Of a DNA stretch of 42,084 nucleotides, positions 9,661 through 42,084 are shown piece after piece. The notes under the pieces were generated by a model that saw only the letters and a list, made by a program, of their open reading frames with translations, searched no databases and was not told the DNA's origin. Positions within the stretch are counted from its first letter, which is position 1. The number at the start of each line of letters is the position of its first letter. Origin of the DNA: Burkholderiales bacterium LSUCC0115 (GTDB taxonomy: Bacteria; Pseudomonadota; Gammaproteobacteria; Burkholderiales; Burkholderiaceae_A); the NCBI GenBank assembly GCA_009646425.1, contig WJBW01000002.1, positions 558,122 through 600,205 on the forward strand. The letters are read 5' to 3'. Made by a program: the position numbers and the translations under genes.

Positions 9661-9663
9661 GGA

Positions 9664-12302: not shown

Positions 12303-12575
12303 TTACAGCGTGATGCTTGGAATGCGCAGAATCAACTCACGCAGGTAGTCGGTAAAGAGCGTGAGCATGACAGGGCCCGCCAGCAAGATGATCACCACCA
12401 AGACCAGGATCTTGGGCACAAAGGCAATGGTGGTCTCGTTGAGCTGGGTGGCGGCCTGCACAATACCGATCAGCAGGCCCACGATCAGCAAACCCAGCAA
12501 GATGGGGCCACTTAAGACCAGGGCCATGCGCAGGGCCTGAAAGACCAACTCAATGACCAGGCTGGAATCCATCAT
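12303..12575 (-). CDS. fliQ: Flagellar export gate protein FliQ
   Basis: FliQ is a small two-helix membrane subunit of the export gate. The 90-residue protein has two hydrophobic hairpins with the conserved LLIGIVQAATQLNETTIAFV and PKILVLVVIILLAGPVMLTL. Length matches the family (about 89). GGAG seven bases before the first of two tandem ATGs supports the start. It lies between fliP and fliR with a 3-base gap after fliP. Confidence 0.97.
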   Translation of the reverse strand: MMDSSLVIELVFQALRMALVLSGPILLGLLIVGLLIGIVQAATQLNETTIAFVPKILVLVVIILLAGPVMLTLFTDYLRELILRIPSITL

Positions 12576-12578
12576 GGC

Positions 12579-13325
12579 TTAGCTCCCCACCGCCGCGTAG
12601 CTCTGCACCAGAGACGCCGCCAACAAGCCCCAGCCATCGGCCATGACAAAGATGAGCAGCTTGAGCGGCAGCGAGAACATCATCGGCGAGACCATCACCA
12701 TACCCAGCGAGGTCAGGATGCTGGCCACTGCAAAGTCAATCGCCAGAAAGGGCAGAAAGATCATGAAGCCGACAATAAAGCCGGTCTTGATCTCGCTGAT
12801 CGCAAAGGCCGGAATGAGCACTGTCATGGGCACCTGCTCACGGGTCTCAATCGGCTTGCCATGCATGCGGGCAAACAGGGCCAGATCGTCCTCACGAGTG
12901 TTGCGCAGCATGAAGGCCTTCAGGGGTTTGCTGCCAACATCCACGGCCTGCTCAAAGCTCAGCCGCTTTTGGGTGTAGGGCACATAAGCCTGGTCGTAGA
13001 TCTGATCAAAGACCGGCTTCATGATGAAGAGCGTCAGAAACAACGACAGCCCCACCAGCACCAGGTTGGGCGGCATGGTGGTGAGACCCAGGGCCTGCCG
13101 CAACAGCGAGAAGACAATCAAGATCCGGGTAAAGCTGGTCATGAGCATGAGCGCAGCCGGAATAAAACTCAGCGCCGTCAGCACAATGAGCGTCTGGACC
13201 GGCACCGAGTAGGTGTTGCCCTGGACACTGACCAGAGGCAGGGTCTGAGCCACCGCAATGGCCGAACCGCCCATGAGCCCCGCCGCCAACAGACTGCCGA
13301 AGAACCACTTGGTGGACTTGCGCAT
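12579..13325 (-). CDS. fliP: Flagellar export gate protein FliP
   Basis: FliP forms the core of the export gate. The start at 13325 (MRKSTKWFF) is chosen because a longer frame from 13388 would overlap fliO by about 60 bases. This start instead yields a proper signal sequence ending AIAVAQ. Family motifs include LTALSFIPAALMLMTSFTRI, LLRQALGLTTMPPNLVLVGL and a late FLPFLAIDFAVASILTSLGM with MMFSLPLKLLIFVMADGW. About 248 residues, normal. It begins four bases after the fliO stop. Confidence 0.96.
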   Translation of the reverse strand: MRKSTKWFFGSLLAAGLMGGSAIAVAQTLPLVSVQGNTYSVPVQTLIVLTALSFIPAALMLMTSFTRILIVFSLLRQALGLTTMPPNLVLVGLSLFLTLFIMKPVFDQIYDQAYVPYTQKRLSFEQAVDVGSKPLKAFMLRNTREDDLALFARMHGKPIETREQVPMTVLIPAFAISEIKTGFIVGFMIFLPFLAIDFAVASILTSLGMVMVSPMMFSLPLKLLIFVMADGWGLLAASLVQSYAAVGS

Positions 13326-27003: not shown

Positions 27004-27978
27004 CTACTCGTCCACCGCCAGCCGCACGCGCACCTCGTGCAGGCCTGCTTTTTCGAGTCGGCCATCCAGATCGCCCAAATTGTTTTTCAAGACGGTCTGG
27101 GCTTTTTTCTCGGGCATGACCAGCAGGCCCACACTGTCTTTGACCTGCAACCCCCGAATGGTCACCTGGCCCAGGGTGGGCAGCTGCGCCTCGAGAGAAA
27201 TCTGACTGCCCTTGACCAGCTGACCGCCTGGCGTGTCGGGGTCTTCGGCATAGGCGTCCTCTCGAAAGAGCCTGGCCTGCACACCAGGGATGAGTTCGCC
27301 TGCCCACAAGAGCTGGCCATGCAGCAGCAGATTCAGACCGTCTTGCATCTGTTGGCTGCCGGCTTGCGGCATTTGGCGAGACAGGTCCTCCAAGCTGGTG
27401 TCGTGGGCCAGGTCGGCATCGGAGGCGCGCAGCCGATCCAGCAGTGACTCGGGCCGGCCATTGGCCGATTTGTTCGCTAGGGCTCGCCCTGGCGCAGCGG
27501 TCTCTTTGAGGACATCCGGTGCCAGCTTATGAGCCAGCTGCGAAACCGCCAGCATGGGTGAGCTGGCCAGGGCATCGCGCAGGGCGACGAGCGCCTGCTG
27601 AGGATTTTGGGCGACGGCCTGCCCCTGTGGTAAGGGCTGCCCGTTGGGCATCGCGGGCTGGGGCCACTTCAGGGTGTGAGGGCCAGATTCTGCGCGGCCC
27701 AGCTGTGCGGCGAGCTTGAGGGTGCGGGCCAACTCTGGATCATCGATCGCCTGCTCGGGCGAGACATAGAGCTGACCGGGGTGCTGGGTGGATGGCTTGA
27801 CCGGCTGGGCCTGGTTGGGCACCTGGCCCACCGGTACGGGCACCTTCAGGATGACGCTGGGGTCCATGAACTTGGACGCCACATCGGAGAAGACCACCGG
27901 CATGACGCGCACCACGGGCTCAGTCTTGGCCCGGGTGACTGGTACTTCTAACTGCGGTAACTGCGGGGGGATCTGCAT
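27004..27978 (-). CDS. FliK-like protein (second hook-length/export switch type)
   Basis: The 324-residue protein has a Pro/Gln-rich N-terminal half. The C-terminal part resembles a FliK or flagellar hook-length control domain (LLLHGQLLWAGELIPGVQAR, then LPTLGQVTIRGLQVKDSVGL). It is distinct from the FliK at 16272-17873, which has the canonical Flg_hook domain, and may be a partner of the adjacent FlhB-like protein. AAGGAG lies five bases before the ATG. Assignment is by domain resemblance and context, without full confidence in the family name. It is co-oriented with fliS and likely shares its transcript. Confidence 0.7.
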   Translation of the reverse strand: MQIPPQLPQLEVPVTRAKTEPVVRVMPVVFSDVASKFMDPSVILKVPVPVGQVPNQAQPVKPSTQHPGQLYVSPEQAIDDPELARTLKLAAQLGRAESGPHTLKWPQPAMPNGQPLPQGQAVAQNPQQALVALRDALASSPMLAVSQLAHKLAPDVLKETAAPGRALANKSANGRPESLLDRLRASDADLAHDTSLEDLSRQMPQAGSQQMQDGLNLLLHGQLLWAGELIPGVQARLFREDAYAEDPDTPGGQLVKGSQISLEAQLPTLGQVTIRGLQVKDSVGLLVMPEKKAQTVLKNNLGDLDGRLEKAGLHEVRVRLAVDE

Positions 27979-28007: not shown

Positions 28008-28463
28008 TTAGGTGCTGGTGTGTAGCCCTTTGAAATCTTTTGGCTCAACCGACTCCATTGGTGCCACAGCAGAGTTGCCGTGCTCACGCATGGTGTAGAT
28101 CTCGGCCCAGGCGGACTCTAGGTCTTTGAAGACCTCAATCACGCCAGACAACAGCAAGGGGTTGTTCTTGAGCCGGGCCTGCAGGATCTCGCGCAGCGAC
28201 CAGTCGTAGAGAGCCGCCAGGTTCTGGGCAATCTCGCCACCCTTCTCGTGATCCAGCGCAGCAGCCAGGCCTTTTTGAATCAGGTCCAGTGCGCGGCTGA
28301 TGTACTCGGCGTTCTCTTTGCCCTCTTCCATGGCCTTTTGGGCCATGCGCAGGTTGTCAAGCAGGCGCTTGTAGACCAGCACGATGAGTTCAACGGGCGA
28401 GGCCTCGGAGACTGCGGTCTGGGCCGCAATATTTTTGTAGGCTTTCATGGCTCTGGCATTCAT
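28008..28463 (-). CDS. fliS: Flagellin export chaperone FliS
   Basis: FliS binds flagellin in the cytoplasm and prevents early polymerisation. The 151-residue protein is helical, with ASPVELIVLVYKRLLDNLRM near the N-terminus, a FliS signature, and YISRALDLIQKGLAAALDHE. AGAGGA lies seven bases before the ATG. The C-terminal tail is slightly longer than in Salmonella (135 residues). It follows fliD by 62 bases. No FliT-like chaperone gene follows it. Confidence 0.94.
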   Translation of the reverse strand: MNARAMKAYKNIAAQTAVSEASPVELIVLVYKRLLDNLRMAQKAMEEGKENAEYISRALDLIQKGLAAALDHEKGGEIAQNLAALYDWSLREILQARLKNNPLLLSGVIEVFKDLESAWAEIYTMREHGNSAVAPMESVEPKDFKGLHTST

Positions 28464-28525: not shown

Positions 28526-31438
28526 TTAGTTCTTCTGGCTGTTGACGAGGCTGTCGATGGCCGAGGCCAAGGCGTTACTGGTGGTCTGGAGACGGAACAG
28601 CAGGGCATCGAGTGCGGCGTACTGACGGTAGTAGCGGTCCTGGATGCGTGAGAGCTTGTCCTCCCAGTCCGAGATGCGCTCCTCGAGTTGAGCCTGCTGG
28701 GCCTCGACGTCACTCAGGTGGGTCGAGATGAGGCCAGTGGTTCGCAGCGAGGCCGTAAGGAAGCTGGTGAAGTTGCTGGTGCTGCTCTCGTAGCCCAGGG
28801 TGACACCTGCGGCCAGTTTGTCTTGCAGGCCATTGCTGACCGCCGTGTTCAAGGCGCCGGTGTCCAGGTAAAGGGTGCCGTCGCGCTGAAACTCCACGCC
28901 AATGGAGCCAAAGCTAATGTTGCTGCCGTCAGCCAACCGAATGCCCTGGGAGTAGAGCCCGCGCAGACGATCCATGAACGACCGAACATTGGAGTCACCG
29001 TTTAGGACGCCACGGGAATTGGGGTCTGTTGAGGCAACGGTCTCGGTCTTGTAGAAGCTGATCAGGTCGTTGTAGGCGGTGACGAAGTCAGTGACCGCCT
29101 CGGCGGACAGGTCTTGAGCGCCGGCGGTGACGTTGATGGTGGCGTCGGTCGTGCCAGAGGCAAAGGTCGTCGAAGAGAGCGCGGTGATAGCCCCACCAGA
29201 GGGCACCGTTGGCGTATTGAGATTGAAGGTGACACCCGAGACCACATCGTCGATGGAATTGGATGAGCGCTGCAGCGCCTGCCCGTTGATGGAAACAAAG
29301 GCGTCTCGGGCTGACTGGAGCTCAATGGAGGCGTGTTCGGTCAGGGTGGCGGCAACGGTTGTTCCGGTTCCCGAGACCAACATGGTGATTCTGTCACCCG
29401 CCTTTGCTGACCCAACCACGTCAGCGATGCTGATGATGTCGTTTACGCCATCGTTAACGCTAAACGTTCCGGAGGACAGCGTGGCGCTGTAATTAACGTC
29501 ATCGGGGCCAGAAACAATCCAAGACACGCCGTCATAAGTGGCCACATAGCTACCATCCGCCGGAGCGCTGGAGACAGATTCCGCACCCCACTCCGTTATC
29601 CCAAAGTTCTCAACATTTGCGACCAAGTTGGCTGCTGCGATACCTGCAGAGCTGGTCGCAGCGACTGTTTTAGCTGCGCTAAACCCGAAAGGCTCATTTG
29701 CTGTCAAGGCGGTGAAATCAACCGCATTCCCACTTGACGTCGCAACGGCGGTCGAACCAGTGCCGTACGCAGCAGCCAGCGCCGTCGCAATATTGGTGTG
29801 AGTCGCAGCAGTCGCACCGTCTCCATCGATATCCGCTGCCAGAACGGTGTAATTAAATGGGACACCTTCAATCGTCACTGATATGACGTCACCAGCGGTA
29901 AACTGACCCTTCAACTCAAGTCGAGCGACCTGTTCCACGCCATCACTAGCAGCCGTCTCCTCATAGATGACGGCGGCGGCCGCCCCCGATGAGACAGAAA
30001 TGGTGTGCGAGACACCCCCGGTCACAGCCGAGAAGTCGATGACACCGTCTGTTGCATCCGCCTCAACATCGGCGTGCCCATCAAAAAGCGCTGCTATGTT
30101 GGTGGCAATGTTTGCGTAGGCGGTGTCGGAGTTGCCGAGAACTGCGGCACCACCAGCGCCATCTGCAGTCAGATCGTCAGACGTGACCTGGTAAATAAAG
30201 GGGTCACCATTAACCGTTATGGTGACGACGTCTCCTGCAGCGTACGTTCCGGATAACGTCACTCGATCTAATTGCTGGTCCGGAGAAGAAATGCCACCAA
30301 TTGCAATCGCGTTATCCGCACCGGTAATGGTCGAACTAATACTTAACGAGTACTGGCCCGCGCCACTTTGAATGACAGCGGCCTGCAGACTTGCTCCCAA
30401 CGAGTTGATAGAGGACGCCAAATTAGCCAGGGTGAACGTCTCGCTTACCACGCCAGTTCCCTCGGGATCCCCGTCAGCAGAAGTCTGTGAGGTTGGAGTG
30501 CCCGTCACCACAGGGGAAACGCCCTGGTCGAGCGAGGCTATGAGGCCTTTGCTTGGATCGATCGACGCAATCCGGAGATCGTCAGAGACCACCGTTGCGT
30601 AGACACCGGATAGCGTCCCTGCGGTCACGGCAGCATTGATGGCGCTTGCCACCGTTCTTGCGGAGTCTTGCGTAGTCAGGGTGAAGGATTGGGGCGTACC
30701 GTCCGACAGCGTAAAAGTGATGACATCTCCCGATGCAAAGGTCGGTGAGCTGTCGAAGGTGACATACCCCGGAGTGTCCAAGGATGCCGACACCCCCTGA
30801 ATGGCGTTGACCGAGTCGATCTGAAGTTCATCATCTGCGCTGACCGAAGCAAATACACCAGTCAGAGTGCCAGCAGTAACGGCGGCATTGATGGCGTTGG
30901 CCACCTCAGAGGCTGTGGTTTGTGTCGTCACCGAAAAGGTCTGCGCATCTTGACCATTCAGGGTCATGGTGATGCGCTCATTGCGGGTAAAGGTTGTCTT
31001 GTCGGTCAGCGTAGCGAACTGGGGCGAGTAAGTTACGGCATCATCACCCGTCCCGACCGTTAGAGAAAACTCGTCGAGGTCAATGACCTGGGACGCACTC
31101 TGGAATCCGCCCAACACTTCGGCCTCGGCCTGGGCTGTTTGGGCCACTTTGACGGCATATGTTGCCGCGGCAGCGGAATTACTTGCCGTGGCGGAGACCT
31201 TGGTCGCATCACTGGAAGTGGTGTCCCGCAGCGCGTAGATACCGGGGGTGGTCAGGGCCTTAGCAGCAGACTCCAGGGCGGAGACCTTGCTCTGAAAGAC
31301 ACCCAGGGTGCTAATAACAAGGGTCTTTTGATCAACCTGCGTTTGCAGCTTGGTGACGGGCACGCGCTCAACGTCCATGAGACCCGATACGATCTCTGGA
31401 ACGTTAATTCCTGTGCTGGTCGTGCTGGAAACCGCCAT
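28526..31438 (-). CDS. fliD: Flagellar filament cap protein FliD, enlarged with repeat modules
   Basis: FliD caps the filament and inserts flagellin subunits. At 970 residues it is about twice the usual 450-500. FliD_N spans about 1-110 (INVPEIVSGLMDVERVPVTK) and FliD_C about 705-960, ending LASAIDSLVNSQKN. The middle has two near-identical flagellin IN-type repeats (155-222, 237-304). Two copies of a longer beta-rich module follow (390-490, 504-590). One GSYVATYDGVSW module is at about 626-650, shared with a flagellin here. AGAGGG seven bases before the ATG supports the start. A consensus sigma-54 promoter lies 64 bases upstream. Extended cap domains may match the enlarged flagellins. Confidence 0.95.
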   Translation of the reverse strand: MAVSSTTSTGINVPEIVSGLMDVERVPVTKLQTQVDQKTLVISTLGVFQSKVSALESAAKALTTPGIYALRDTTSSDATKVSATASNSAAAATYAVKVAQTAQAEAEVLGGFQSASQVIDLDEFSLTVGTGDDAVTYSPQFATLTDKTTFTRNERITMTLNGQDAQTFSVTTQTTASEVANAINAAVTAGTLTGVFASVSADDELQIDSVNAIQGVSASLDTPGYVTFDSSPTFASGDVITFTLSDGTPQSFTLTTQDSARTVASAINAAVTAGTLSGVYATVVSDDLRIASIDPSKGLIASLDQGVSPVVTGTPTSQTSADGDPEGTGVVSETFTLANLASSINSLGASLQAAVIQSGAGQYSLSISSTITGADNAIAIGGISSPDQQLDRVTLSGTYAAGDVVTITVNGDPFIYQVTSDDLTADGAGGAAVLGNSDTAYANIATNIAALFDGHADVEADATDGVIDFSAVTGGVSHTISVSSGAAAAVIYEETAASDGVEQVARLELKGQFTAGDVISVTIEGVPFNYTVLAADIDGDGATAATHTNIATALAAAYGTGSTAVATSSGNAVDFTALTANEPFGFSAAKTVAATSSAGIAAANLVANVENFGITEWGAESVSSAPADGSYVATYDGVSWIVSGPDDVNYSATLSSGTFSVNDGVNDIISIADVVGSAKAGDRITMLVSGTGTTVAATLTEHASIELQSARDAFVSINGQALQRSSNSIDDVVSGVTFNLNTPTVPSGGAITALSSTTFASGTTDATINVTAGAQDLSAEAVTDFVTAYNDLISFYKTETVASTDPNSRGVLNGDSNVRSFMDRLRGLYSQGIRLADGSNISFGSIGVEFQRDGTLYLDTGALNTAVSNGLQDKLAAGVTLGYESSTSNFTSFLTASLRTTGLISTHLSDVEAQQAQLEERISDWEDKLSRIQDRYYRQYAALDALLFRLQTTSNALASAIDSLVNSQKN
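29669..30271 (-). repeat. Duplicated beta-rich module in FliD, shared with flagellins
   Basis: FliD residues about 390-490 and 504-590 each follow the pattern L-x-G-x-(F/Y)-x-A-G-D-V-(I/V), then Y-x-V, an Asp/Gly-rich turn and NIA-type helix. The same order appears in flagellins at 31527 (residues 219-326) and 38508 (466-568). The copies are diverged, so they are an old family or repeated exchange rather than a recent tandem copy. Confidence 0.7.
30527..30976 (-). repeat. Tandem IN-type repeats in FliD
   Basis: FliD residues 155-222 and 237-304 share VTTQ or LTTQ then AINAAVTAGTL-x-GV and a following IDS or IAS strand. The underlying DNA is also alike near 30615-30655 and 30865-30905. The similarity at DNA level suggests a rather recent duplication. 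The motif matches the flagellin IN repeat family found in FliD and related proteins. Confidence 0.75.
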
Positions 31439-31526: not shown

Positions 31527-34500
31527 TTAGGCCGGCTGAGCCTGCAAGAGCGAGAGAATGACCTGGGGTAGAAGGTTGGCTTGGGCGGCCATTGCTGTCG
31601 CGGCCTGTTGCCCTATTTGAATTTTCGTGAGGCGCGCCATCTCGGCACCATAGTCGGCCTCTACGAGATCAGAATTCACTTTCGTCAAACCCTGAAAGAC
31701 ATACCCATTGCTCGAGATGGCGTGCTCCAAACGGTTCTGCTGAACGCCCAAACCTGTTCGAGAACGAGACACCTCGGTGATAACGGAATCTATGGTGTTT
31801 GCAAGTCCAGCGTAAAAATCATTGCTTTCAGCAGCAGGGACCCCATCCTGAAGCAATTCAAATCTAGCGGCCAGTTGATCAAACGCGAGCTTGCTGGAAC
31901 CGGTGTTCCGACTAGCCCCATTTAACCTGAAGTCCGACAATCCAGTAATCGAATAATCGCCGCTACGTGTATTTGCCCCGACCTGGAATAGAGCATCCGA
32001 CCCCACCGACGACACTTGCAGATCTGCGGCGAGCCCAGTCAATCTGGAGAATTCGTCCGAAGCCAAATCAGTCAGGCCGGAATTCTCAAGAGACAACGAA
32101 ACTCCAAGCGCCTCAAAATCTAGTTGTCTATTTCCTGAGGCGGGAACCTTCGACAGGCTAAGCGTTTCAGAGGTCAGCACTTCCCCAGAACCCCCCAGTT
32201 TAGTCAACGTGACCGAATCCGCGGAACCGATGGTTCTAACTTGTATGTCAATGTCGTCATTGCCAGTGAGCATCGGATAGTGCAGGGTGATCTGATTCGC
32301 ACTGGCGGAGACGCGAGCAGCCACCGGGAAGTCTGGAGTTTGGGTGGCGCTGGTCGTATTCGGAAAATCGTCGTCAATCAGACCGGCCAATTTCTCAGCA
32401 ATCGAACTTGCATCATCAGTAGACTCGACCAGTGCCACATAGTCTTTACCGGCAAAAGACAAGCTGACAGTATTTCCAACCGCCAGATCGGAGTCGCTGA
32501 TGGTTACAACACGATCAGATCGGTCTCGAAAATTCGAGGAAACCGAATCCTCACGTCCACCCAGATATGAGCCATTGACATAGCGATTTGTAATGACGTT
32601 ACCAGCTGTTAGGGTGAAATAAACCTTGTCGCCGACCTGGGGGGTGCCAGCCAGGTCTAACTCAACACGGTCGTCCGCAGAGCTTCCACCCGACGGATCC
32701 AAAATCAGCCAGTTCACGCCATTTTCAGTGGTGTACTGCGCAGTCAGCACAGTGTCGCCAAACGCATTCTTAATTGAGTAATCCGAACCGTTATATTCAA
32801 GGATGTAGTCGCCTTCGTCCAAGATTCCGGCCACCGCAAATCTAACGCCCGTGGTTCCAACCCTGAGGTAGGAGGGCGTGTTGTTATCCACCGTCATCTG
32901 ATCGCCGGTGATTGGCGTCCTCAGATTCGCACTTGCAGTTGAAGCATCCAAAGTCTCTGCACGGCGAATCTCGAAGCTTTGAGTAACGCGGGCACTCGTC
33001 CCTCCCGACCCATTTTGAACTATCGATCCGTTATAAACCGCATTTACAGGGCCCCCAGTGGTTGTCCATGATGAACCGTTGTAGGAAAATCCATAGGTTC
33101 CCTCGACAAGTGGGTTCTCGGTTCCGAGACTTGTTACGTCTCCATTAAAGTCATTGTATCGACCAGACAAATAAGACTGGTAGCGTGTTTCCCATACCGG
33201 ATTCAGTGCCGTACCAATATTTGCAGTGTAGGCATAGGTGCCAACTGTTATTACGTCTCCCTCTTTGCCGCTAGACAATGATCCAACGTTTCGGCCACTG
33301 ACATATACAGTCGAGCCGGAAACAGAGGAACTGCCCCCCGTGGTGGCAACCCAAGACGAACCGTTATAGCGAAAATCCCAGTACCCTGAGGCTACAAAAT
33401 TCGTGGTGTAACTCTGAGCAGAATATGTGCCACTAACGGACCGCGAGAGAGTTGCGATCCCAGACTGTCCTGTAGCGCCTACCGAAAAGCTTATGGAGTC
33501 GCCAGACCTATAGCCTGCGGTGAGCCCAAAGTTGCTGGAAGTCAACGAGCGGTAGGGGTTGTCGATCACAGTGACCGTGGAGGCACCATCGTACGTCGCC
33601 GTGTAGGTCGTTCCACTTGGCGTCCAGTAATTGAGAGATGCGTTGTACGTCAGCACATGCGACCCACTGGAAATAGTCCCTGTCCCGCCACTAACCGCAA
33701 CCAGCTTCGTATCGTTCCAGATACCGGGTACCACCGTATCATCCGTTGTGCCCATCGCAGCGTCTGCACCGTTGGCCGCAGTTGCTGTAATCGTCCGAGA
33801 AAGTGTCCTATCCGGGTCGCCATTTTGAATTTCAAAGAAATAGCGATCGCCGTAGCGCGGTGTTCCGGTCAGCGCCACGTTCACCTGATTTCCCGTACTG
33901 GTGGTCAAGACGGAGCCGTCGAACGTACTGACACTACCAGGCAACGGATCCCGAACAACAGACCACCCAGACTCGGAATACAGAATTTCGTAAACGCCAT
34001 CATCGAGTCGGCCACCAACACCCCAGGTGGCATCGGTAATACCCTGTGCTGGGCCGACACGCGTATTTAAGTCCCCACGCACAGTCTCGGTGGCTGCAAT
34101 CGTGATTGCAGCCATTCCAAGACCTAAGCTACTAGAGAAAGTAATCTGATTGTTACTTACCGAAACAGCTGACGCTCCGGAACCAAAATTCTGCTGAATG
34201 AGCCCGCCAAGTTTGGAAGCAACCGTGTTTTTATCGTCATCCGTACCTGCGATCACTGAGAACTGTGTGGACGTCTCGGGGTTGCCAACGCTGATGGTGA
34301 AGCGCCGCCCCTCGATCACATCAAAGTCCGCGATGGAGACAACCCGATCGGCAGTCGCCGAGCCAGTGGGATCAGAAACAGTTGATGCAAGATTCTCAAT
34401 CTGGCTGGCGCTGGCTGCCTGATAGACCTGGTAGGTCATAGCCGCGTTCGTTAGCCCGGACCCACTCTCAATCGTCAGAATGGACCCCGCTCTTATCGCC

Positions 34501-35645
34501 GTATCGGGATGGTCTGCTAGGACAGCCTGGCGGAGGCCCTCTGCCACGTCCTCCCTGCTTGAGTCACTCGCCACGATGTATTCATAAGACTTACCGTTAA
34601 TTGAAAGAGCGACTCGATTTCCTTCGGCTAGATCGCCGTCAGTGACGATGACTTCACGGGACTGATCGACCCTGTTGATCGCTTCGGCAGCGACGGATAT
34701 TGAGGTCAAGCCGGCCCCTTGGAAGGTAACGACCGCTCCGTCTGCTGTTGCGTCTGGCTTGGAAATATTGCTTGCGTTATACAGGGCCGCCATCCCAGCA
34801 GCAATGTTCGACAAGGCGGTGTCGCTTCCGCCACTCACCACTCCGCCAAATCCGTTGTTGTCCCTGGTCAGGTTCTCAGAGGTGACCGTATAGGTCTTGA
34901 CTGTGGTCTGGTCGGGGCTATCCCCCTTGACTGTGTAGCGAATGGTATCCCCAGCCTCGAAGACGCCAGACAGGGTGATGGTGCGAGCACTTGCTGAACC
35001 ACCGACGGTCGCCAGCTGAGTAAGGTCGGCACCCTCTAGCGGAGTGAGGGGGGACGACACCCTAGACATCTGGTTGGCCAACAGGCTAGAACTGCCAAAA
35101 CTCAAACGATAATTGCCGGGATCCGCCTGGGTGGCGTCCAAAGCCTTGACTGATAAACGCGGTTCAACAGCCGAGATGGTAGAGGCGAAAGCGGGAGCAT
35201 TGGGGCCCAGCGTGGAGATGAGAGATTTCTTGAGAAGAGAGTTTTCGTTGTAGCGGGTTCTCTCCGCGACTGCATTGATCTCGTCCCGAAGTTGCAATAG
35301 CTCCGCCGCGATGGATTTCCGTTGGTCGGCCGAGAGGTTGTCATTTCGACCCTGTACAGCCAACCCCTTCATTCGGTCCAGAATGTCGGAAACGGAGCTG
35401 AGAGCTCCCTCGGAAGTCTGAATGACCGAGATAGCCTCGGAGGCATTCTTTGTTCCTTGGGCCGACGCCACAATCTGGCTCTGAATCTTCTGCGAGATGG
35501 CAAGGCTGGAGGCATTGTCCGAGGCACGGTTAATCCGTAGGCCAGAGGACAAACGTTCAACGACAGACACATCACCAACCATGCCCATACTCGAGCTCTT
35601 ATATGTGTAAGTCTCTGAAAAATAATCGTTAAGTCTCACTGCCAT
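31527..35645 (-). CDS. Giant flagellin with repeat modules (flagellin A)
   Basis: A 1372-residue flagellin, more than twice the Salmonella size (about 495). The start at 35645 (MAVRLNDYF) puts ERLSSGLRIN at residue 30, exactly as in the flagellin at 38508. An upstream TTG would lie inside the putative promoter. The N-domain carries RLSSGLRINRASDNASSLAI and the C-domain ends LPQVILSLLQ. The N-terminal helix is unusually aromatic (NDYFSETYTY). The variable region holds one long beta module (219-326). It also has three REVIVTDGDLAEG-type modules (330-432, 434-530, 1045-1145) and five GxYxxxYNGSSW-type modules (547-960). I see no Cys. No good ribosome binding site is apparent. It probably forms part of the filament; its segment is unknown. 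Confidence 0.92.
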   Translation of the reverse strand: MAVRLNDYFSETYTYKSSSMGMVGDVSVVERLSSGLRINRASDNASSLAISQKIQSQIVASAQGTKNASEAISVIQTSEGALSSVSDILDRMKGLAVQGRNDNLSADQRKSIAAELLQLRDEINAVAERTRYNENSLLKKSLISTLGPNAPAFASTISAVEPRLSVKALDATQADPGNYRLSFGSSSLLANQMSRVSSPLTPLEGADLTQLATVGGSASARTITLSGVFEAGDTIRYTVKGDSPDQTTVKTYTVTSENLTRDNNGFGGVVSGGSDTALSNIAAGMAALYNASNISKPDATADGAVVTFQGAGLTSISVAAEAINRVDQSREVIVTDGDLAEGNRVALSINGKSYEYIVASDSSREDVAEGLRQAVLADHPDTAIRAGSILTIESGSGLTNAAMTYQVYQAASASQIENLASTVSDPTGSATADRVVSIADFDVIEGRRFTISVGNPETSTQFSVIAGTDDDKNTVASKLGGLIQQNFGSGASAVSVSNNQITFSSSLGLGMAAITIAATETVRGDLNTRVGPAQGITDATWGVGGRLDDGVYEILYSESGWSVVRDPLPGSVSTFDGSVLTTSTGNQVNVALTGTPRYGDRYFFEIQNGDPDRTLSRTITATAANGADAAMGTTDDTVVPGIWNDTKLVAVSGGTGTISSGSHVLTYNASLNYWTPSGTTYTATYDGASTVTVIDNPYRSLTSSNFGLTAGYRSGDSISFSVGATGQSGIATLSRSVSGTYSAQSYTTNFVASGYWDFRYNGSSWVATTGGSSSVSGSTVYVSGRNVGSLSSGKEGDVITVGTYAYTANIGTALNPVWETRYQSYLSGRYNDFNGDVTSLGTENPLVEGTYGFSYNGSSWTTTGGPVNAVYNGSIVQNGSGGTSARVTQSFEIRRAETLDASTASANLRTPITGDQMTVDNNTPSYLRVGTTGVRFAVAGILDEGDYILEYNGSDYSIKNAFGDTVLTAQYTTENGVNWLILDPSGGSSADDRVELDLAGTPQVGDKVYFTLTAGNVITNRYVNGSYLGGREDSVSSNFRDRSDRVVTISDSDLAVGNTVSLSFAGKDYVALVESTDDASSIAEKLAGLIDDDFPNTTSATQTPDFPVAARVSASANQITLHYPMLTGNDDIDIQVRTIGSADSVTLTKLGGSGEVLTSETLSLSKVPASGNRQLDFEALGVSLSLENSGLTDLASDEFSRLTGLAADLQVSSVGSDALFQVGANTRSGDYSITGLSDFRLNGASRNTGSSKLAFDQLAARFELLQDGVPAAESNDFYAGLANTIDSVITEVSRSRTGLGVQQNRLEHAISSNGYVFQGLTKVNSDLVEADYGAEMARLTKIQIGQQAATAMAAQANLLPQVILSLLQAQPA
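32766..34013 (-). repeat. Five YNG-type modules in flagellin A
   Basis: Flagellin A residues 547-960 contain five units with the pattern G-x-Y-x-x-x-Y-N-G-S-x-W, for example GTYGFSYNGSSWTTTGG and GYWDFRYNGSSWVATTGG. Two earlier units (GVYEILYSESGW, GSHVLTYNAS) and the last (GDYILEYNGSDY) are diverged. Beta strands and turns between units suggest a string of small domains. FliD has one related unit near residue 628. Confidence 0.75.
34056..34658 (-). repeat. Tandem VxIxDxDLxxG modules in flagellin A
   Basis: Residues 330-432 and 434-530 each open with a strand and Asp-rich turn (REVIVTDGDLAEG and RVVSIADFDVIEG). A Y- or F-x-V strand and an IN-type helix (DVAEGLRQAV, TVASKLGGLI) follow. A third copy is at residues 1045-1145 (RVVTISDSDLAVG). 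The flagellin at 38508 has three more. Confidence 0.75.
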
Positions 35646-35713
35646 GGTCTGGACACTGTCGAATAGGGGCTCCAATTTGGGGGCCCTCGGACGAAAGCCC
35701 CCCTCATCGATCA

Positions 35714-35740
35714 TTACGGTCAAACCATGTCAAATGTTTA
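35714..35740 (-). promoter_or_regulatory. Candidate sigma-28 promoter for flagellin A
   Basis: On the minus strand TAAA is followed after exactly 15 bases by GACCGTAA, which matches GCCGATAA at five of eight positions. Transcription would start near 35706, about 60 bases before the ATG at 35645. It lies just after the terminator of the neighbouring flagellin operon. Spacing is right but the -10 match is partial. Confidence 0.5.
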
Positions 35741-35752
35741 GCCGAAAGGTGC

Positions 35753-35781
35753 AAAAAAAATGGCCCTAAACAGGGCCATTT
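35753..35781 (-). terminator. Rho-independent terminator after flagellin B
   Basis: AAATGGCCCT and AGGGCCATTT form a perfect 10-bp stem around AAAC at 35758-35781. On the minus strand it runs into eight T residues (35753-35760). It lies about 19 bases past the stop of the flagellin at 35800 and separates that transcript from flagellin A. Confidence 0.92.
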
Positions 35782-35799: not shown

Positions 35800-38496
35800 C
35801 TACAACAGCAACTCCAAAACCACGCTGGGAAGCTGATTCGCCTGCGCCAGCATGGCCCCAGCCGCGTTGTAGCCAATTTGCATGCGGGCCAATCTCGCAG
35901 ACTCAAAGCCAAAGTCAGCATCTTGGATTACCCCTAGAGCGTTTGTTAGGCCTGCGTTCTGATCGAATAGGTTCTGTGAAGAGCTCTCCAAACGCCTTTG
36001 AAGGTTGCCAAAGTCGGTACGCCGACGGGTCACAGCCTCCAGCACCCGATCCAAATCACCTTGCAGCCCCTGAAACTCCACGCCACTCATGGCTACAGAT
36101 ACTCCAAGATCGGAAATGCTTGCGTCGAGCTGATTGAAAAGCGCCCCCTCCGAAGTGTCGGAGTTTTCCCCAATTCGGATGTCCCTAAAAACGCCTGCCG
36201 CCAAATCGGCTCTGGTGCCCTCTCCCAGCTGGAAAACCGGGCCCCGTTCGCTGACGGCGGACACCATTCGACTGGAGGCAAGCCGATGCTCAGCAGTTAG
36301 TCCAGCTTGAACTCCCCAAATGGTAATGGATTCATCAGAACTGTTGGATAAGGTGACCGATACACCAAGGGAATCAAACGATAGCTGTCTTGTTTGTCCA
36401 GAGGAGATCGAGCCTTTATCTCCTAAGTAAATGGTCTGATCACCCAGCAAAGTTGTTCCATCAACATCGTAGTGGGTCAGGGTTACATTCTGATTCGAGG
36501 CGTTGGTAGAAAGTTTAAATACGCCGTCTCTGGCACCGGCCGTATCCAACCGCGAAATACTCAGAGCAGTACCCACCTTCAGACTCCCCGGTGTTCCCAA
36601 GAGAATGGACTTGGAGGTAGAACCATAGACACCCTTGTAGCCACCGTACTCGATGACGTAATAGTCAACGTTATTGTTCCCGATCGAGAAGTCATTCCAG
36701 GTCGCGCCTCCAATGGCGTAAGCGAAATGCTCTCCGCTGGCATTTACATTACCGGGATAGGTGTACACGGTGGCATCCGCGTTATTCGGCTCGCCGATAC
36801 CTTGGTTCACACCCGATCTAATTGCAACGGTTGGATCAGCCCTGGCCCAGTCCGCATACGCCGTCTGGACTTGCCCAATTCCCCCGGATACCAGGTTCAC
36901 TGCGCCGCCGCTGACGTTGCCGTTTTGAAACTGCAGCCCAGCCTCCGGTCCATCAATCCAATACCACTTTCCCTCGGCTGCCGCTTGATCAGCATACGTC
37001 AGGGTATTTTGCCTAAAGGCGTTTCCTTCTCCAACTAATTGACCAGACGTTAACCAGGAGTTGCGATTGCCAATCGCCTCGTTGATTAGGTAATACCAGT
37101 CACTGGCACCGATCCAACCATTATTATTCAGCTTTTCCGCCAAGAAGGCGCTCTCTTCAGCGCTGGTGATATTGGCCAAGTATCCGTTATCGTAATCAGT
37201 AGGTAGGCCCAATTCACTTATGACGCTACTAAGAGCCGCACTTCGAGCGGTATCCCAGTTGATGTCATCACTACGAACAACTTGGTAATAAGACGTTGCG
37301 CCAGTCGATGAATTGGTAAAAACCGATATGTCATCAGGCACGATATCAATCGAAATATCACCGAGTCCTGTTTTGTTGTCGACTTCTAAGGTCGCTAAGA
37401 CTGAATTGAGTGCCGCGGCACTGCCCGTAAATGCCATCTCGTATCGCCCGGCATTTAGAGCGGACGAGCCAAGGGTGGCGTAACCACTTACTGCCGCAAT
37501 GCCAAGTGTGGTCATCTGGGCTGCGGTCAGGGTGGTTCTTATCTCCCCGCCGGAGGAGGTTACAACCGCCTTCAGAGTCCCCGAGCCGGAAGCCCAGTCA
37601 GCCCCCTCGACTTTGGTCCATCCCGCGTTCTTGATTTGCTCGTTGACAGTCGTTCCTATCCCGACAATCTTCGTTGCGATCTCTGCAGCGGTATGGTCAG
37701 ATCCGACTGCGGTATTTTTTACATCTAAAGTCACACCAAGTTGGAAAAAGTTTAGGGTTGTTGAGCCCCCAACGTTCTGAGATAACGACACCTCGCTCAA
37801 AGACTTCGGAGTAGACGTTGTCAAAGTGAGGGACTGAGAGGTGACGACCCCGTTGGCATCCGTTTTTTGAAGGGTTAATTGGGCCCCGTTGTTGGTAAGC
37901 GTATAGGTTCCGCTACCAGCATCATCGACAGACACATAGCTAAACTGAACCGAAGACTTGCCGGCCACGGTGGCCGATGAGTCCCCCTCGCGGATGGTCG
38001 AACCAATCAGAGAGGCTCTGGCAGAAGGATTCAAGTTTGTATTCAGATTAAACTGGCCTGACTGGGCCTCAGTAAAATCTCCCGTCAACACCTTCATACC
38101 GTTAAAGCTGGTACGTGTGGCAATCGCATTAATCTCGTCCCGTAGCTGGGTAATTTCACCAGACAACTGCCTCTTTTGATCCATAGACAGCCCATCCTGG
38201 GCACCCTGCACCGAAAGTTGACGCATGCGCTGCAGCAAGTCAGAGACATTTGACAGGGATGATTCTGCAGTCTGAACCATCGATATCGCCGATAACGCAT
38301 TGCGCTTGGCCATCTCGGTAGACCGGACCTGACGCTGAAGCTCCTGCGAAATCCCCAATCCGGCTGAATCGTCTCTCGCATGGTTAATCCTGAGGCCCGA
38401 GCTGAGTCTCTGGACGGACACACTCAGCGAATCTGAGGCGCGCTCAACTCCTCGGCTGCTAATAAGTCCTATTAGGTTTGTCTTTGCAGAAATCAT
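35800..38496 (-). CDS. Giant flagellin with inserted C-type-lectin-like domain (flagellin B)
   Basis: An 898-residue flagellin. The core is clear: QRLSSGLRINHARDDSAGLG with ALSAISMVQTAESSLSNVSD at the N-terminus, and a C-domain ending LARMQIGYNAAGAMLAQANQ, LPSVVLELLL. Between them, residues about 400-619 form a C-type-lectin-like domain (listed separately). Flanks at about 180-395 and 625-745 are beta-rich. No Cys is visible, so disulfides of animal lectins are replaced by other packing. It begins 11 bases after the flagellin at 38508 and shares its transcript, ending at the terminator 35753-35781. The Shine-Dalgarno sequence is weak (AGAG). Confidence 0.93.
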   Translation of the reverse strand: MISAKTNLIGLISSRGVERASDSLSVSVQRLSSGLRINHARDDSAGLGISQELQRQVRSTEMAKRNALSAISMVQTAESSLSNVSDLLQRMRQLSVQGAQDGLSMDQKRQLSGEITQLRDEINAIATRTSFNGMKVLTGDFTEAQSGQFNLNTNLNPSARASLIGSTIREGDSSATVAGKSSVQFSYVSVDDAGSGTYTLTNNGAQLTLQKTDANGVVTSQSLTLTTSTPKSLSEVSLSQNVGGSTTLNFFQLGVTLDVKNTAVGSDHTAAEIATKIVGIGTTVNEQIKNAGWTKVEGADWASGSGTLKAVVTSSGGEIRTTLTAAQMTTLGIAAVSGYATLGSSALNAGRYEMAFTGSAAALNSVLATLEVDNKTGLGDISIDIVPDDISVFTNSSTGATSYYQVVRSDDINWDTARSAALSSVISELGLPTDYDNGYLANITSAEESAFLAEKLNNNGWIGASDWYYLINEAIGNRNSWLTSGQLVGEGNAFRQNTLTYADQAAAEGKWYWIDGPEAGLQFQNGNVSGGAVNLVSGGIGQVQTAYADWARADPTVAIRSGVNQGIGEPNNADATVYTYPGNVNASGEHFAYAIGGATWNDFSIGNNNVDYYVIEYGGYKGVYGSTSKSILLGTPGSLKVGTALSISRLDTAGARDGVFKLSTNASNQNVTLTHYDVDGTTLLGDQTIYLGDKGSISSGQTRQLSFDSLGVSVTLSNSSDESITIWGVQAGLTAEHRLASSRMVSAVSERGPVFQLGEGTRADLAAGVFRDIRIGENSDTSEGALFNQLDASISDLGVSVAMSGVEFQGLQGDLDRVLEAVTRRRTDFGNLQRRLESSSQNLFDQNAGLTNALGVIQDADFGFESARLARMQIGYNAAGAMLAQANQLPSVVLELLL
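36640..37299 (-). other. C-type-lectin-like domain inside flagellin B
   Basis: Residues about 400-619 of flagellin B show the order of motifs of bacterial C-type-lectin-like domains. These are YYQVVRSDDINWDTARSAA, GYLANITSAEESAFLAEKL, WIGASD (461-466) and WYWIDGPEAG (511-520). GEPNN follows (EPN at 569-571), then GATWNDFSI (WND at 600-602) and YYVIEYGG (612-619). EPN and WND are the classical Ca2+ and sugar-contact motifs of mannose-type C-type lectins. It lies where flagellins have their surface-exposed variable domain. Binding to sugars is inferred, not shown. Confidence 0.85.
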
Positions 38497-38507: not shown

Positions 38508-41500
38508 CTATGAGATGAGACTGAGGATGACATTAGGCAATTGATTAGCCTGAGCAAGCATGGCCGCGGCACTGCTTTGCCCAATTTGCTGACGCACCAT
38601 GCGCGACATCTCCGCAGCATAATCAGCGTCAGCTATGTTCGATTGGGCAGCCTGCAATTCAATTACCGAATTACCGAGCCCGGATATGCCGAACTGGAGC
38701 GAATTGATATACGCACCCATCTGAGAGCGAAGTCGAGCGACCTCCGTAGAAACCTCGTCAATGGCGACTTCAAGCTTCTCATCAATATCTGAGTCTGTCG
38801 GTCCAATCGAATCAAGACCAACAGCTGTGATGGCCTCATACAACTTGTCGAATGCTGGGGCATAGGAGAGTCCGCTCGAATTTCGGCCGGTTATCCGAAT
38901 ATCGCCAAGTGCCGGCAACCCTGTTGAGTCTCTGACATTTGAGCCAATTTGGAATATTCCAGCGTCCGAGAAGTTTTTAACTTCCATGGCTGCACTTAAC
39001 TTTGTCGAAGAAAACGCGGCGGATGCGTCAAAAACAGATTGGTCAATATTCTGCAGCTTCAGTGAGACTCCATAATCGCTAAAAAAAGCTTCAGCAGTAT
39101 CGCCAGCTGCAACACCACCGTCGATTGCTATCGTCTGACTAGAAACTCGATTCCCGTAGTCATCCAGCATCGACAGAGTGAGTGCATTTGCATTCTCTGG
39201 CTTAACGACCGCTAACCCAATATCATCAAGCCCCAGCAAAGCGGTCCCCGTGAAGCTTATTCGATTGGCGTCTAGAGCTATCCGAGTCCCAGTATCGTCA
39301 TTCGGATAATCAACCTGCAGCAAAGAGACCAGGCGCTTCGCCACCGTATCGGCAGTGTCAGATGAATCGATCTGGACAGCGTACTCTTTCTCGCCGATAG
39401 ATACCGAGAAAATCGCTCCATCAATCACATCTGCCTGACTAATCGTCAATGTTCTCGCGGTATCGTCACGCGCTCTTGGGCTCACCTGGGATGTTGTACC
39501 GGATGCCTGATAGTCAACAACCTCTCTCAAACCCAACGAAATGTTGGACATTCCGAAGCCGGTTGCCGCATTGATCGTAATGACATTAGAGACGACTGTA
39601 GATCCTGAAGAGGGCCCAATGGCTGAACCCATATTGTCATCGATGAGTGCTTCTAGTCTTTCGGCGACTGTCGAACTGGTATCGCCTGTTCCAACACGGA
39701 CTCTGTATGTGGTCGCTGTTCCGGGCGACCCAATGCTTACAGCAAGCTCACGACCAGGAATAAGATCTCGATCATTGATGACAATTCGCCTATCGGCTTG
39801 AGCAACATCGGAAGGATTGTCTACGTATGAAGCAAATGACGCGGCGGCCTGAAACTGTGACGGCGTCTGAACCGTCAGAGAAATCTCTGCGTCTGACGTC
39901 TGTGACCCTGGTTGAAAAGTAAGCGTCTCGTCAGAGACCGATATGGAGCCTGGGTAGTCCTTCGAGAGCTTCTCTTCGAAAATGCCGGCGACGCTGCTGG
40001 CCGTCATTCCCTGGCTTGTGATAACCGAGTAGTCCCGCCCCCCCACTGAGAGGGTTAGCTTGTTTCCCGCTGCCAAATCGGCTTGTGAGAAGGTGACGTC
40101 TCTTTGAAGCAGTGGCCGGTTGAGTTGCTCCGCTGTGATTGTGACGGAAGCCCCTGCAAATGTGACAATTCCCGAGGCAGCAGAGGATGTAGGGCTAGAG
40201 GTGGTTAAGTCGCCATACTGATCTGCAATGCTTTGTGCGATGTTTTGTCTTGCAAGGTCACTATCTGGGTCTATTGCGCCACCACTACCATCATTATTCT
40301 TTGTAAAGTTCTCTGCGGTTACGACATAGGTCAGCGTCGTAACGGTTGAGGTGTCCCCCTTAACCGAGTAGAGGATTTCGTCTCCGGCCTCCCACTCACC
40401 GGAAACCGTGAGTTTCGCGGCGGTAGTCGTGCCCCCCGTATAGACCTGGGTTTCACCTGCGCGGGCAGCAAAAGTGACATTTACATCATCGATCACCATC
40501 TGTGCCCCAGCCCCTCTGAATCCACTTTTGTCATAGGTACCAGAGACAAAGACAAATTTGTAATTGCCTTCCTGTCCAGCTAGAACGGTAACGGGATCGG
40601 CTGTGGCGAATGTGCCGTTTACTGTACCGGGTACAACGTCACTCGTACGAGTGCCAGTTGCCTTTAACAGCTCAATTGTCGACCCGTCTGATGTGTTTAG
40701 AAGGTAGCCGTACACATCAAAGTCATCGCTAACGTAATTCGCTCGCCACTTAAACGAAATTTCATCGCCAGCCTGTAGATCAACAGTGCCAGTGGATATG
40801 AGATAGGGGCCATGCACAACGTCGTATCCAACCGCTGTGGTCATGTTGGAATTTAAAACCGCAGACACCCCCTCCGCAGCAGCTGTCACCGTGCTAGCGA
40901 AACCTGCACTGTAAGTGGCACTCCCGGGGGTGTTTTCGTCGCCGTTAGGCGGGATTGTCCCAGGATTATTTGTGACACTTGGAGATACAAAACCACCGAT
41001 CTCTGTAGTCCCCAATTTCACCTGTTGGAGATAAACATCCCAACCGGGAATCGACTGAACGGTCACTGTTGTCGTAGCTCCCGCTGGGCCGTTTACCTGC
41101 ACTAACGCGGTAGACGTCGTAACAGAGCCACTGTTCTCAAAGTCATTGTTCGTGAACTGCGGCGGAGCGGGATTCGGTATGCGTCCCTCGGTAGGGTCTG
41201 ACTTGGCCGTCACATGGCTGGATACAGAGATCGGAGTACCCGGAGAGCCCACGGTCAACTCATACCGGCCTATTTCGGCTGTATCGACCCCAACCTCGGT
41301 CACCTTGAGTCCATTGGCCAACACACTCCCAGGCCTCAGACTGTCAACACCATTAGCAACTCCCACCACTTCATCGGATAGACGAGGCGGACCGATCGCA
41401 TTTTTGAGCAAAGACAGATGATTAAAGGTGGTGCGGTCGGCAATGGCATTGATTTCTGATTTTAGGCTCACGAGCTCATCAGATATAGCCTTCCTCTGCT

Positions 41501-41819
41501 TGGTGGAGAGGGAGTCGTTTCGGTTTTGAACCGATAACTCCTTCATGCGCTGAAGAATCGTGGACACCTCAGACAGGGAGCCCTCAGCCGTCTGAACCAT
41601 CGAAATCGCATCATTGGCATTGCGAATACCCTGGTTCAAGGCCGTTACCTGGCTCTTGATCTTCTCAGAGATCCCTAGACCAGCCGCATCGTCCTTGGCT
41701 CGGTTAATCCGCAAACCCGAAGACAAACGCTCAACGGAAGTGGCTAATCCCTGGCTGTTACTGGCCAAGGAGCGCGCCCCAAACATAGAGAGCAGATTTG
41801 TACCGGCTCTTATCGCCAT
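38508..41819 (-). CDS. Giant flagellin with jelly-roll domain and repeat modules (flagellin C)
   Basis: A 1103-residue flagellin. The N-core has VERLSSGLRINRAKDDAAGL at residues 29-48 and NANDAISMVQTAEGSLSEVS. The C-core has NIADADYAAEMSRMVRQQIG and ends QANQLPNVILSLIS. Residues about 222-451 form a jelly-roll-like domain (listed separately). Downstream is one long module at 466-568 and three VxIxDxDLxxG-type modules at 573-655, 678-775 and 789-880, as in flagellin A. It follows flaG by 16 bases and precedes flagellin B by 11 bases, so all three are likely co-transcribed. No clear ribosome binding site. Confidence 0.93.
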   Translation of the reverse strand: MAIRAGTNLLSMFGARSLASNSQGLATSVERLSSGLRINRAKDDAAGLGISEKIKSQVTALNQGIRNANDAISMVQTAEGSLSEVSTILQRMKELSVQNRNDSLSTKQRKAISDELVSLKSEINAIADRTTFNHLSLLKNAIGPPRLSDEVVGVANGVDSLRPGSVLANGLKVTEVGVDTAEIGRYELTVGSPGTPISVSSHVTAKSDPTEGRIPNPAPPQFTNNDFENSGSVTTSTALVQVNGPAGATTTVTVQSIPGWDVYLQQVKLGTTEIGGFVSPSVTNNPGTIPPNGDENTPGSATYSAGFASTVTAAAEGVSAVLNSNMTTAVGYDVVHGPYLISTGTVDLQAGDEISFKWRANYVSDDFDVYGYLLNTSDGSTIELLKATGTRTSDVVPGTVNGTFATADPVTVLAGQEGNYKFVFVSGTYDKSGFRGAGAQMVIDDVNVTFAARAGETQVYTGGTTTAAKLTVSGEWEAGDEILYSVKGDTSTVTTLTYVVTAENFTKNNDGSGGAIDPDSDLARQNIAQSIADQYGDLTTSSPTSSAASGIVTFAGASVTITAEQLNRPLLQRDVTFSQADLAAGNKLTLSVGGRDYSVITSQGMTASSVAGIFEEKLSKDYPGSISVSDETLTFQPGSQTSDAEISLTVQTPSQFQAAASFASYVDNPSDVAQADRRIVINDRDLIPGRELAVSIGSPGTATTYRVRVGTGDTSSTVAERLEALIDDNMGSAIGPSSGSTVVSNVITINAATGFGMSNISLGLREVVDYQASGTTSQVSPRARDDTARTLTISQADVIDGAIFSVSIGEKEYAVQIDSSDTADTVAKRLVSLLQVDYPNDDTGTRIALDANRISFTGTALLGLDDIGLAVVKPENANALTLSMLDDYGNRVSSQTIAIDGGVAAGDTAEAFFSDYGVSLKLQNIDQSVFDASAAFSSTKLSAAMEVKNFSDAGIFQIGSNVRDSTGLPALGDIRITGRNSSGLSYAPAFDKLYEAITAVGLDSIGPTDSDIDEKLEVAIDEVSTEVARLRSQMGAYINSLQFGISGLGNSVIELQAAQSNIADADYAAEMSRMVRQQIGQSSAAAMLAQANQLPNVILSLIS
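39180..40103 (-). repeat. Three VxIxDxDLxxG modules in flagellin C
   Basis: Residues 573-655, 678-775 and 789-880 open with RDVTFSQADLAAGNKL, RIVINDRDLIPGREL and RTLTISQADVIDGAIF. Each continues with a beta strand (SVGGRDY, SIGSPG, SIGEKEY) and an IN-type helix (VAERLEALI, VAKRLVSLL). Three further copies are in flagellin A. Confidence 0.75.
40467..41156 (-). other. Jelly-roll, carbohydrate-binding-like domain inside flagellin C
   Basis: Residues about 222-451 start with FTNNDFENSG and a PGW (IPGWDVYLQQVKLG). They continue with DLQAGDEISFKWRA and DDFDVYGYLLNTSDGSTIEL, then GNYKFVFVSGTYDKSG, and close with AQMVIDDVNVTF. This order, with the final IDDV strand, is typical of galactose-binding-like beta-sandwich domains in secreted and adhesive proteins. 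Sugar binding is a guess from fold type; no ligand residues can be named. Confidence 0.6.
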
Positions 41820-41835: not shown

Positions 41836-42084
41836 CTAAGCTTTTTGATTGACGAGCATGCCGCGCATTTGGTCGATGCTTCTAGCGATGCGTAGGGTCT
41901 CCTCTGAGGGTAGGCTGCGGACTACCTCACCGGTCTCTGGGTTGACGACTCGTGCAACGTAATAGCCCGTAGACTCATCTACCGAGACATTCAGGTTGCG
42001 ACCAGACTCTTTCAGGTAGCCCTGGATCTGCTGGGCTGCCACCTGCATAACCTCTTTGGTCGCCTGTGCATACTGCTGCACATT
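41836..42084 (-). CDS. flaG: FlaG family protein, C-terminal part
   Basis: FlaG proteins influence filament length. The visible 82 or so residues include an amphipathic helix and LNVSVDESTGYYVARVVNPE, TGEVVRSLPSEETLRIARSI, the FlaG signature. The frame stays open to the right edge (an in-frame GTG at 42081 is unlikely to be the start), so the N-terminus is missing. It lies 16 bases before flagellin C and probably heads or shares its transcript. Confidence 0.88.
   Translation of the reverse strand, partial: NVQQYAQATKEVMQVAAQQIQGYLKESGRNLNVSVDESTGYYVARVVNPETGEVVRSLPSEETLRIARSIDQMRGMLVNQKA

Follow-up and report, generated by a model that had tools for sequence, protein, structure and literature searches.

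What does a domain of the sugar-binding type do in the middle of a flagellin? The question is raised by flagellin B (FlaB) of Burkholderiales bacterium LSUCC0115, which is encoded by an open reading frame of 898 amino acids (flaB, 35800–38496) in a stretch of 42,084 nucleotides of contig WJBW01000002.1, hereafter the window. All features located by window coordinates below lie on the minus strand. An initial annotation, made from the sequence letters, had proposed a C-type-lectin-like domain (CTLD) between the flagellin cores of this protein. Homology, structure prediction and an orthologue from another genus support the assignment of the insert as a C-type lectin domain between intact cores. 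We consider it probable that FlaB is a filament subunit with an outward-pointing cassette, composed of an immunoglobulin-like (Ig-like) domain and the CTLD, that the cassette binds sugar through Ca2+, and that it was captured once from an adhesin.

Domain architecture of flagellin B

FlaB begins and ends as a flagellin. The Flagellin_N core (PF00669, residues 6–141, 38074–38481) scored 118.6 bits (E = 2.8e-34) and the Flagellin_C core (PF00700, residues 816–897, 35806–36051) 54.5 bits (E = 1.5e-14), each well above the Pfam cut-off, and the full-length model showed long helices at residues 2–98 and 105–129 on the Flagellin_N side and 805–897 on the Flagellin_C side. The cores that enclose the CTLD are therefore intact, as had been proposed.

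The outer region between them starts with a first beta domain (residues ~181–291, 37624–37956), whose strands in the full-length model are partly of low confidence. It is followed by the domain that we label Ig-like (residues 292–392, 37321–37623), which lies immediately N-terminal of the CTLD and resembles the stretch preceding the CTLD in five adhesin-like proteins. The CTLD itself (residues ~393–620, 36637–37320) was delimited from its homologues and the structure prediction, and a second beta domain (residues ~638–760, 36217–36585) from the full-length model and sequence comparison. A common origin of the two flanking beta domains by duplication is not claimed, as blastp within the window protein gave E = 0.84 and hhalign a probability of 61%; between the first beta domain of the window protein and the second of the orthologue, blastp gave a weak match of 8.9e-5.

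All six lectin motifs listed in the initial annotation for residues 400–619 (36640–37299) were recovered in place, namely LANITSAEES (starting at residue 440), WIGASD (461), WYWIDGPEAG (511), GEPNN (568), WND (600), and YYVIEYGG (612). FlaB contains no cysteine, which rules out disulfides of the type found in the animal domain. No peptidase family was found in the Pfam scan of FlaB and the insert folds as a CTLD, so that the protein does not classify as a flagellinolysin. The part encoding the CTLD has a GC content of 51.7%, which lies inside the 48.6–56.1% spanned by the rest of the gene, taken part by part; composition thus gives no sign of recent import.

Identification of the lectin domain

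Taken by itself, the window copy is a poor witness to its own family. Against Pfam Lectin_C (PF00059) it reached 13.1 bits (E = 0.17), which is under the curated cut-off of 22.6 bits; it is through the homologues, and not through this copy, that the match rises above chance. No Lectin_C match at E ≤ 0.01 was obtained when the CTLD was searched together with its Ig-like part, and phmmer of the domain against the PDB returned no lectin but three antibody light chains (E = 0.42–0.47). A Lectin_C search of the organism's own genome gave no match, nor did the same search in 14 control genomes, and tblastn of the domain against plasmids found nothing. The weak detection is likely due to the insertions of the window CTLD, which compared to the orthologue carries nearly 40 extra residues after D466 and shorter insertions elsewhere, including before and after EPN. 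After the SD motif, two CTLDs from Flavobacteriaceae (L038 and L053) have a loop that is similar in sequence, though shorter.

Two findings settled the call, namely an orthologue from another genus and a family of homologues. The orthologue is a flagellin of 839 residues encoded in genome G015, of the same family but another genus, and is 45% identical to FlaB over the full length; the same flagellin sequence is present on contig VERJ01000016.1 of the metagenome-assembled genome Burkholderiaceae bacterium ZLKRG38 (locus L006). Its single frame matched Flagellin_N (137.5 bits), Lectin_C (29.0 bits), and Flagellin_C (80.7 bits), all above the cut-off. As an isolated domain its CTLD reached 33.6 bits against Lectin_C, and against the PDB it matched CD23 (E = 1.4e-9) and mannose-binding protein A (1.8e-6). 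The CTLDs of the two flagellins are 59% identical.

Relatives of the CTLD are encoded at 72 loci found by searching genome contigs. From these and the window we chose 53 rows for the alignment of the Ig-like domain plus CTLD (A3), consisting of the window, L006 and 51 more, while 20 loci were excluded because they were weak or short or resembled others. Lectin_C was matched at E ≤ 0.01 by 50 of the 53 aligned rows (best 1.3e-13), the window row not being among them. The profile of the alignment retrieved 115 PDB sequences at E ≤ 0.01, with CD23 (1.4e-14) as the best match and mannose-binding protein C (MBP-C) at 3.6e-13, and in the alignments shown EPN, the glutamate and WND were in register with the solved CD23. 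The Lectin_C membership that the initial annotation had put up for checking is hence carried by the orthologue and the aligned family, whereas the window copy by itself fell short of the cut-off.

The same orthologue bears on the most trivial account of the gene, an assembly chimera or misread frame. Both sources are draft assemblies (16 and ~90 contigs), which invites that suspicion. It is refuted by the recurrence of the architecture in a second genus and an independent assembly, at 45% identity over the full length and with no stop codons; moreover, the two flagellin CTLDs are sisters in the tree. We give an artifact practically no credence.

Structure prediction, which had been named as the test of the lectin fold, agreed with the assignment. 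FlaB residues 292–637 were modeled with AlphaFold2 from the 53-row alignment (mean predicted local distance difference test score, pLDDT, 77.1; predicted template-modeling score, pTM, 0.77), and the CTLD was found to adopt a C-type lectin fold in the model. The best Foldseek match was the lectin domain of CD23 (E = 2.5e-5). With VIA-align the best match was collectin CL-K1 (4yli; Z = 15.3, 1.7 Å over 122 residues), followed by CD23, scavenger receptor C-type lectin, langerin, mannose-binding protein (MBP), and surfactant protein D at Z of ~14–15. The full-length model matched flagellar filaments (Z up to 16.2), and its residues ~381–625 matched C-type lectins (CL-K1, Z = 15.6; mannose-bound MBP-C, Z = 14.7).

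The predicted Ca2+ site and its ligand

The FlaB residues that correspond to Ca2+ site II of C-type lectins are E569, P570, and N571 of the EPN motif (36784–36792), E589 (36730–36732), and N601 and D602 of the WND motif W600–N601–D602 (36691–36699). The ligands E569, N571, N601, and D602 had been named before and are present; the earlier list omitted E589, a further canonical ligand, which is present as well. The five predicted ligands and the motif proline are all kept in 51 of the 53 rows, the exceptions being L035 (S for N601) and L064 (QPD, plus I for N601). The equivalent of E589 is a glutamate in every row (53/53), and neither flagellin has lost any part of the set of EPN, E, and WND. 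Disulfides are typical of the animal C-type lectin domain; as 42 of the 53 rows are free of cysteine, they do not define the bacterial branch.

Sugars of the EPN class include N-acetylglucosamine (GlcNAc). EPN is described as a motif of the mannose/glucose/fucose type (PMC7618208). In site II of mincle, EPN, WND, and a further glutamate coordinate the ion, which contacts the sugar at the 3- and 4-OH; DC-SIGN, which binds mannose and fucose, likewise has EPN, and MGL, which binds galactose, has QPD (PMC7618208).

A C-type lectin fold may also serve other ligands. The CTLD of FlaB could be a folded outer domain for a protein or another non-sugar ligand, with Ca2+ merely stabilizing its loops, as in several CTLDs. 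The Intimin_C domain, noted as a distant relative of C-type lectins (PMC8286594), exemplifies non-sugar ligands of such folds, and the window CTLD has inserted loops near the predicted site. The sugar-type set of EPN, E, and WND, shared by the two flagellins and kept in 51 of 53 rows, points the other way, and we regard a non-sugar ligand as unlikely. Alternatively, the domain might be bulk filler that alters the filament surface, its supercoiling or its recognition by phages or grazers and has no ligand of its own. The adjacent flagellins (1103 and 1398 amino acids) have large outer regions without a Pfam family above the cut-off, and outer domains of flagellins are described as usually variable (PMC12445082), both of which would suit mere filler. 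All predicted Ca2+ ligands were conserved, however, at an identity of only 59% between the CTLDs of the two flagellins, and the proposal of a filler appears clearly improbable to us.

Several observations nevertheless weigh against sugar binding by a FlaB filament. It is from sequence and models that we infer such binding. The EPN motif lies in a ten-residue block with a mean pLDDT of 58 and surroundings of 49–70, compared to 81–86 for the WND blocks, and the full-length model is of moderate quality (pLDDT 66.9, pTM 0.44). The branch of the window CTLD in the tree is longer than that of the orthologue (0.65 vs. 0.29). Because of this longer branch, the insertions around EPN and the low pLDDT of the motif, the specificity of the window CTLD may have changed or weakened relative to its relatives, with the ligand set kept. 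Some proteins with a CTLD fold bind protein or ice instead of sugar, and the PDB matches of the 53-row profile include a type II antifreeze protein. Furthermore, FlaB is accompanied by two other flagellins and may make up few of the filament subunits.

Origin and distribution of the Ig-CTLD cassette

The stretches preceding the CTLD in the relatives were searched with a profile built from the two flagellin Ig-like domains. It matched 6 of 61 such stretches, from five proteins (E = 1e-7 to 1e-4), and none of 127 control stretches. The five adhesin-like proteins with this Ig-CTLD pairing are those of L010, L035, L063, G204 (L084), and G348 (L085 and L093, one protein); two of them are long, with 4056 amino acids within the locus for L035 and 1969 for G348. 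The link was weaker in whole frames, where the default filters gave L086 only (0.0066) and L010 (7e-4), L086, and L071 (0.18) matched with filters off. With the Ig-like domain of the orthologue as blastp query, L035 (4e-6) and L010 (5.5e-5) were matched; with that of the window, the values were 0.006 and 2e-4, respectively. These sequence comparisons lend moderate support to a link between the flagellin Ig-like domain and adhesin-like proteins.

A tree of 64 CTLDs, built from 148 columns, grouped the domains of the two flagellins in one clade with a support of 98/93, nearest by path to one domain from Chlorobiaceae and one from Verrucomicrobia. The Ig-CTLD cassette was probably captured once, from an adhesin. 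The capture may predate the split of the two genera, or the flagellin may later have been transferred between them; both fit the data.

Two further ideas about the history of the domain fared poorly. CTLDs are common targets of diversity-generating retroelements (DGRs), and many prokaryotic CTLDs are hypervariable for this reason, so the CTLD of FlaB might be such a target. PF00078 reverse transcriptase had no match in the organism's own genome, which is 99.96% complete, compared to 3 of 14 controls, and a template repeat was not searched for; we attach next to no weight to a DGR. A mobile-element origin was likewise considered. Among 50,697 phage records, 4 contained a weak relative of the compact CTLD of the orthologue, as did 3 among 72,556 plasmid records, and these records give no sign of carrying the flagellin version.

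The CTLD flagellin is rare and patchy in the sampled genomes. The genome samples overlap, and the window is counted in each. Within the family, the CTLD profile (A2) matched in 3 of 26 genomes, within the order in 14 of 399, and within the phylum in 3 of 398; the longer profile of Ig-like domain plus CTLD (A3) matched in 17 of 369 genomes of the class, where G040 and G958 matched in the Ig-like part only. Searched with our own flagellin profiles, the fetched loci held flagellin frames around a CTLD only in the window gene and the gene of G015/L006, frames exceeding the fetched locus being seen in part only. Flagellin_N was matched in 17 of the 26 family genomes, FlgL-type matches included. The same-genus genomes G001, G003, and G004 encode other long flagellins, whose core sequence differs by eye. 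G017 has a relative of flagellin A, and its contig includes no more than ~1.1 kb of the flagellin that follows.

Other members of the family (L128–L137) have long flagellins of a different kind, with ~730–1900 amino acids, and the core of those from the window genus looks unlike that of the window. The genome of the window also contains an 82-residue open frame (G000:C10:198977-199198) with about half a Flagellin_N domain, perhaps a remnant.

Proposed function

The intact cores and the locus suggest that FlaB would be exported and assembled together with FlaA and FlaC. Its D0/D1 core would build the filament, and the Ig-like spacer and the CTLD, placed between the two beta domains, would point outward; the central region of flagellins is described as the filament surface (PMC5595980). 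Each CTLD would hold one Ca2+ through E569, N571, E589, N601, and D602, and the bound ion would grip a sugar of the mannose, glucose, GlcNAc or fucose type by its vicinal hydroxyls, as expected for the EPN class. Weak as a single site would be, the many copies on a filament could together give reversible binding of high avidity. Polysaccharide, algal, biofilm or cell surfaces are conceivable targets, with the propeller doubling as an adhesive or a surface sensor.

Sequence and prediction demonstrate the architecture, the C-type lectin fold, and the conserved site-II residues; beyond these, we infer that the filament would present a multivalent, Ca2+-dependent sugar-binding surface. The broader notion of a lectin flagellum, in which functional Ca2+-dependent CTLDs taken from an adhesin combine swimming, surface sensing, and glycan-specific attachment in one organelle, we hold to be slightly better than an even call. 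If it is true, such a flagellum might be tuned by environmental Ca2+ and pH. Flagella act as adhesins, and a recognizable domain of the sugar-binding type in a flagellin opens flagellar adhesion to residue-by-residue testing. A natural filament with a foreign lectin could, in addition, be of use for display and capture materials.

The flagellar locus

FlaB is encoded in a flagellar gene cluster. Upstream lie flaG (41836–42081; PF03646, E = 7.5e-16), the start of which may be located beyond the window, and flagellin C (flaC, 1103 amino acids, 38508–41819). Downstream follow flagellin A (flaA, 31527–35723), with 1398 amino acids from the listed TTG start, although translation may in truth begin at an internal ATG, fliD (28526–31438; PF02465 and PF07195), and fliS (28008–28463; TIGR00208). 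The window also holds flgK, I, H, G, E, and D and fliI, G, F, and E. FlaA and FlaC were assigned by their flagellin cores, the two cores being the only Pfam families above the cut-off in either protein.

The gap between flaC and flaB is 11 bases, and a pattern scan placed a terminator-like hairpin directly 3' of flaB (35758–35781). Given the short gap and the hairpin, flaC and flaB are probably carried on one transcript. The hairpin is weak by itself, since the region holds eight terminator-like sites compared to 6.3 expected in shuffles.

Two other genes of the cluster deserve mention. An alpha-type (eukaryotic-type) carbonic anhydrase gene (10291–11415; PF00194, E = 3.7e-42) lies inside the cluster, by eye with flgB/flgC-like genes on one side and a fliR-like gene on the other. 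A protein of 324 amino acids encoded between fliS and fliE (27004–27978) had no Pfam or NCBIfam match.

The genes are ordered differently in G015, where the lectin flagellin and the other two flagellins are encoded on opposite strands. In that genome (L130) the lectin flagellin is located between PIN-domain and Sel1-repeat genes of its own strand (9261–9698 and 12394–13050, plus strand), and two flaG copies lie between the other two flagellins.

Comparison with known systems

Flagellins with inserted domains and lectin cassettes of adhesins are already known; a CTLD in a flagellin, which did not appear in the literature covered, would add the C-type lectin to the short list of recognizable flagellin inserts. 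A screen of 26,587 flagellins revealed 61 domain types in the hypervariable region, and the ten most frequent inserts include gluzincin metallopeptidase (86), vWFA (21), Peptidase_M26 (17), and sialidase (10) (Eckhard et al., 2017; PMC5595980). Convincing structural relatives were not found for the flagellar outer domains studied in PMC8931119. The word "lectin" is absent from the main texts of PMC5595980, PMC8931119, PMC12445082, and PMC7643111. No prior report of a CTLD flagellin was found among titles and the beginnings of abstracts, and Fields et al. (2024) or the rarer domain types of PMC5595980 may mention one.

Metallopeptidase-carrying flagellins, the flagellinolysins cited in the initial annotation, are indeed on record (PMC5595980). 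FlaB resembles them in that a domain with relatives of its own is inserted between the N- and C-terminal flagellin cores and would be displayed many-fold, and differs in that the insert is a C-type lectin, which is not among the ten most frequent types (PMC5595980).

With the Lectin_C domains of bacterial adhesins and secreted proteins, the CTLD of FlaB shares the family, the Ca2+-site residues and, in some of them, the pairing with an Ig-like domain. Those domains, however, sit in adhesin-like, secreted or surface proteins, and the loci checked showed no flagellin core around them. The animal C-type lectins of the mannose type (collectins, MBP, CD23, langerin, DC-SIGN) have in common with FlaB the fold, EPN, WND, and the WIG core motif, whereas the window flagellin is free of cysteine and disulfides and carries the domain on a flagellar subunit.

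A parallel is offered by the RTX adhesin AhLap, in which a ligand-binding domain buds from Ig-like split domains and Ig-like stalk domains of a long surface structure thus display a sugar-binding domain (PMC12077191). The domain of AhLap belongs to the beta-sandwich carbohydrate-binding modules instead of the CTLDs and is accompanied by a type I secretion signal (PMC12077191), whereas a flagellin leaves the cell via the flagellar export apparatus.

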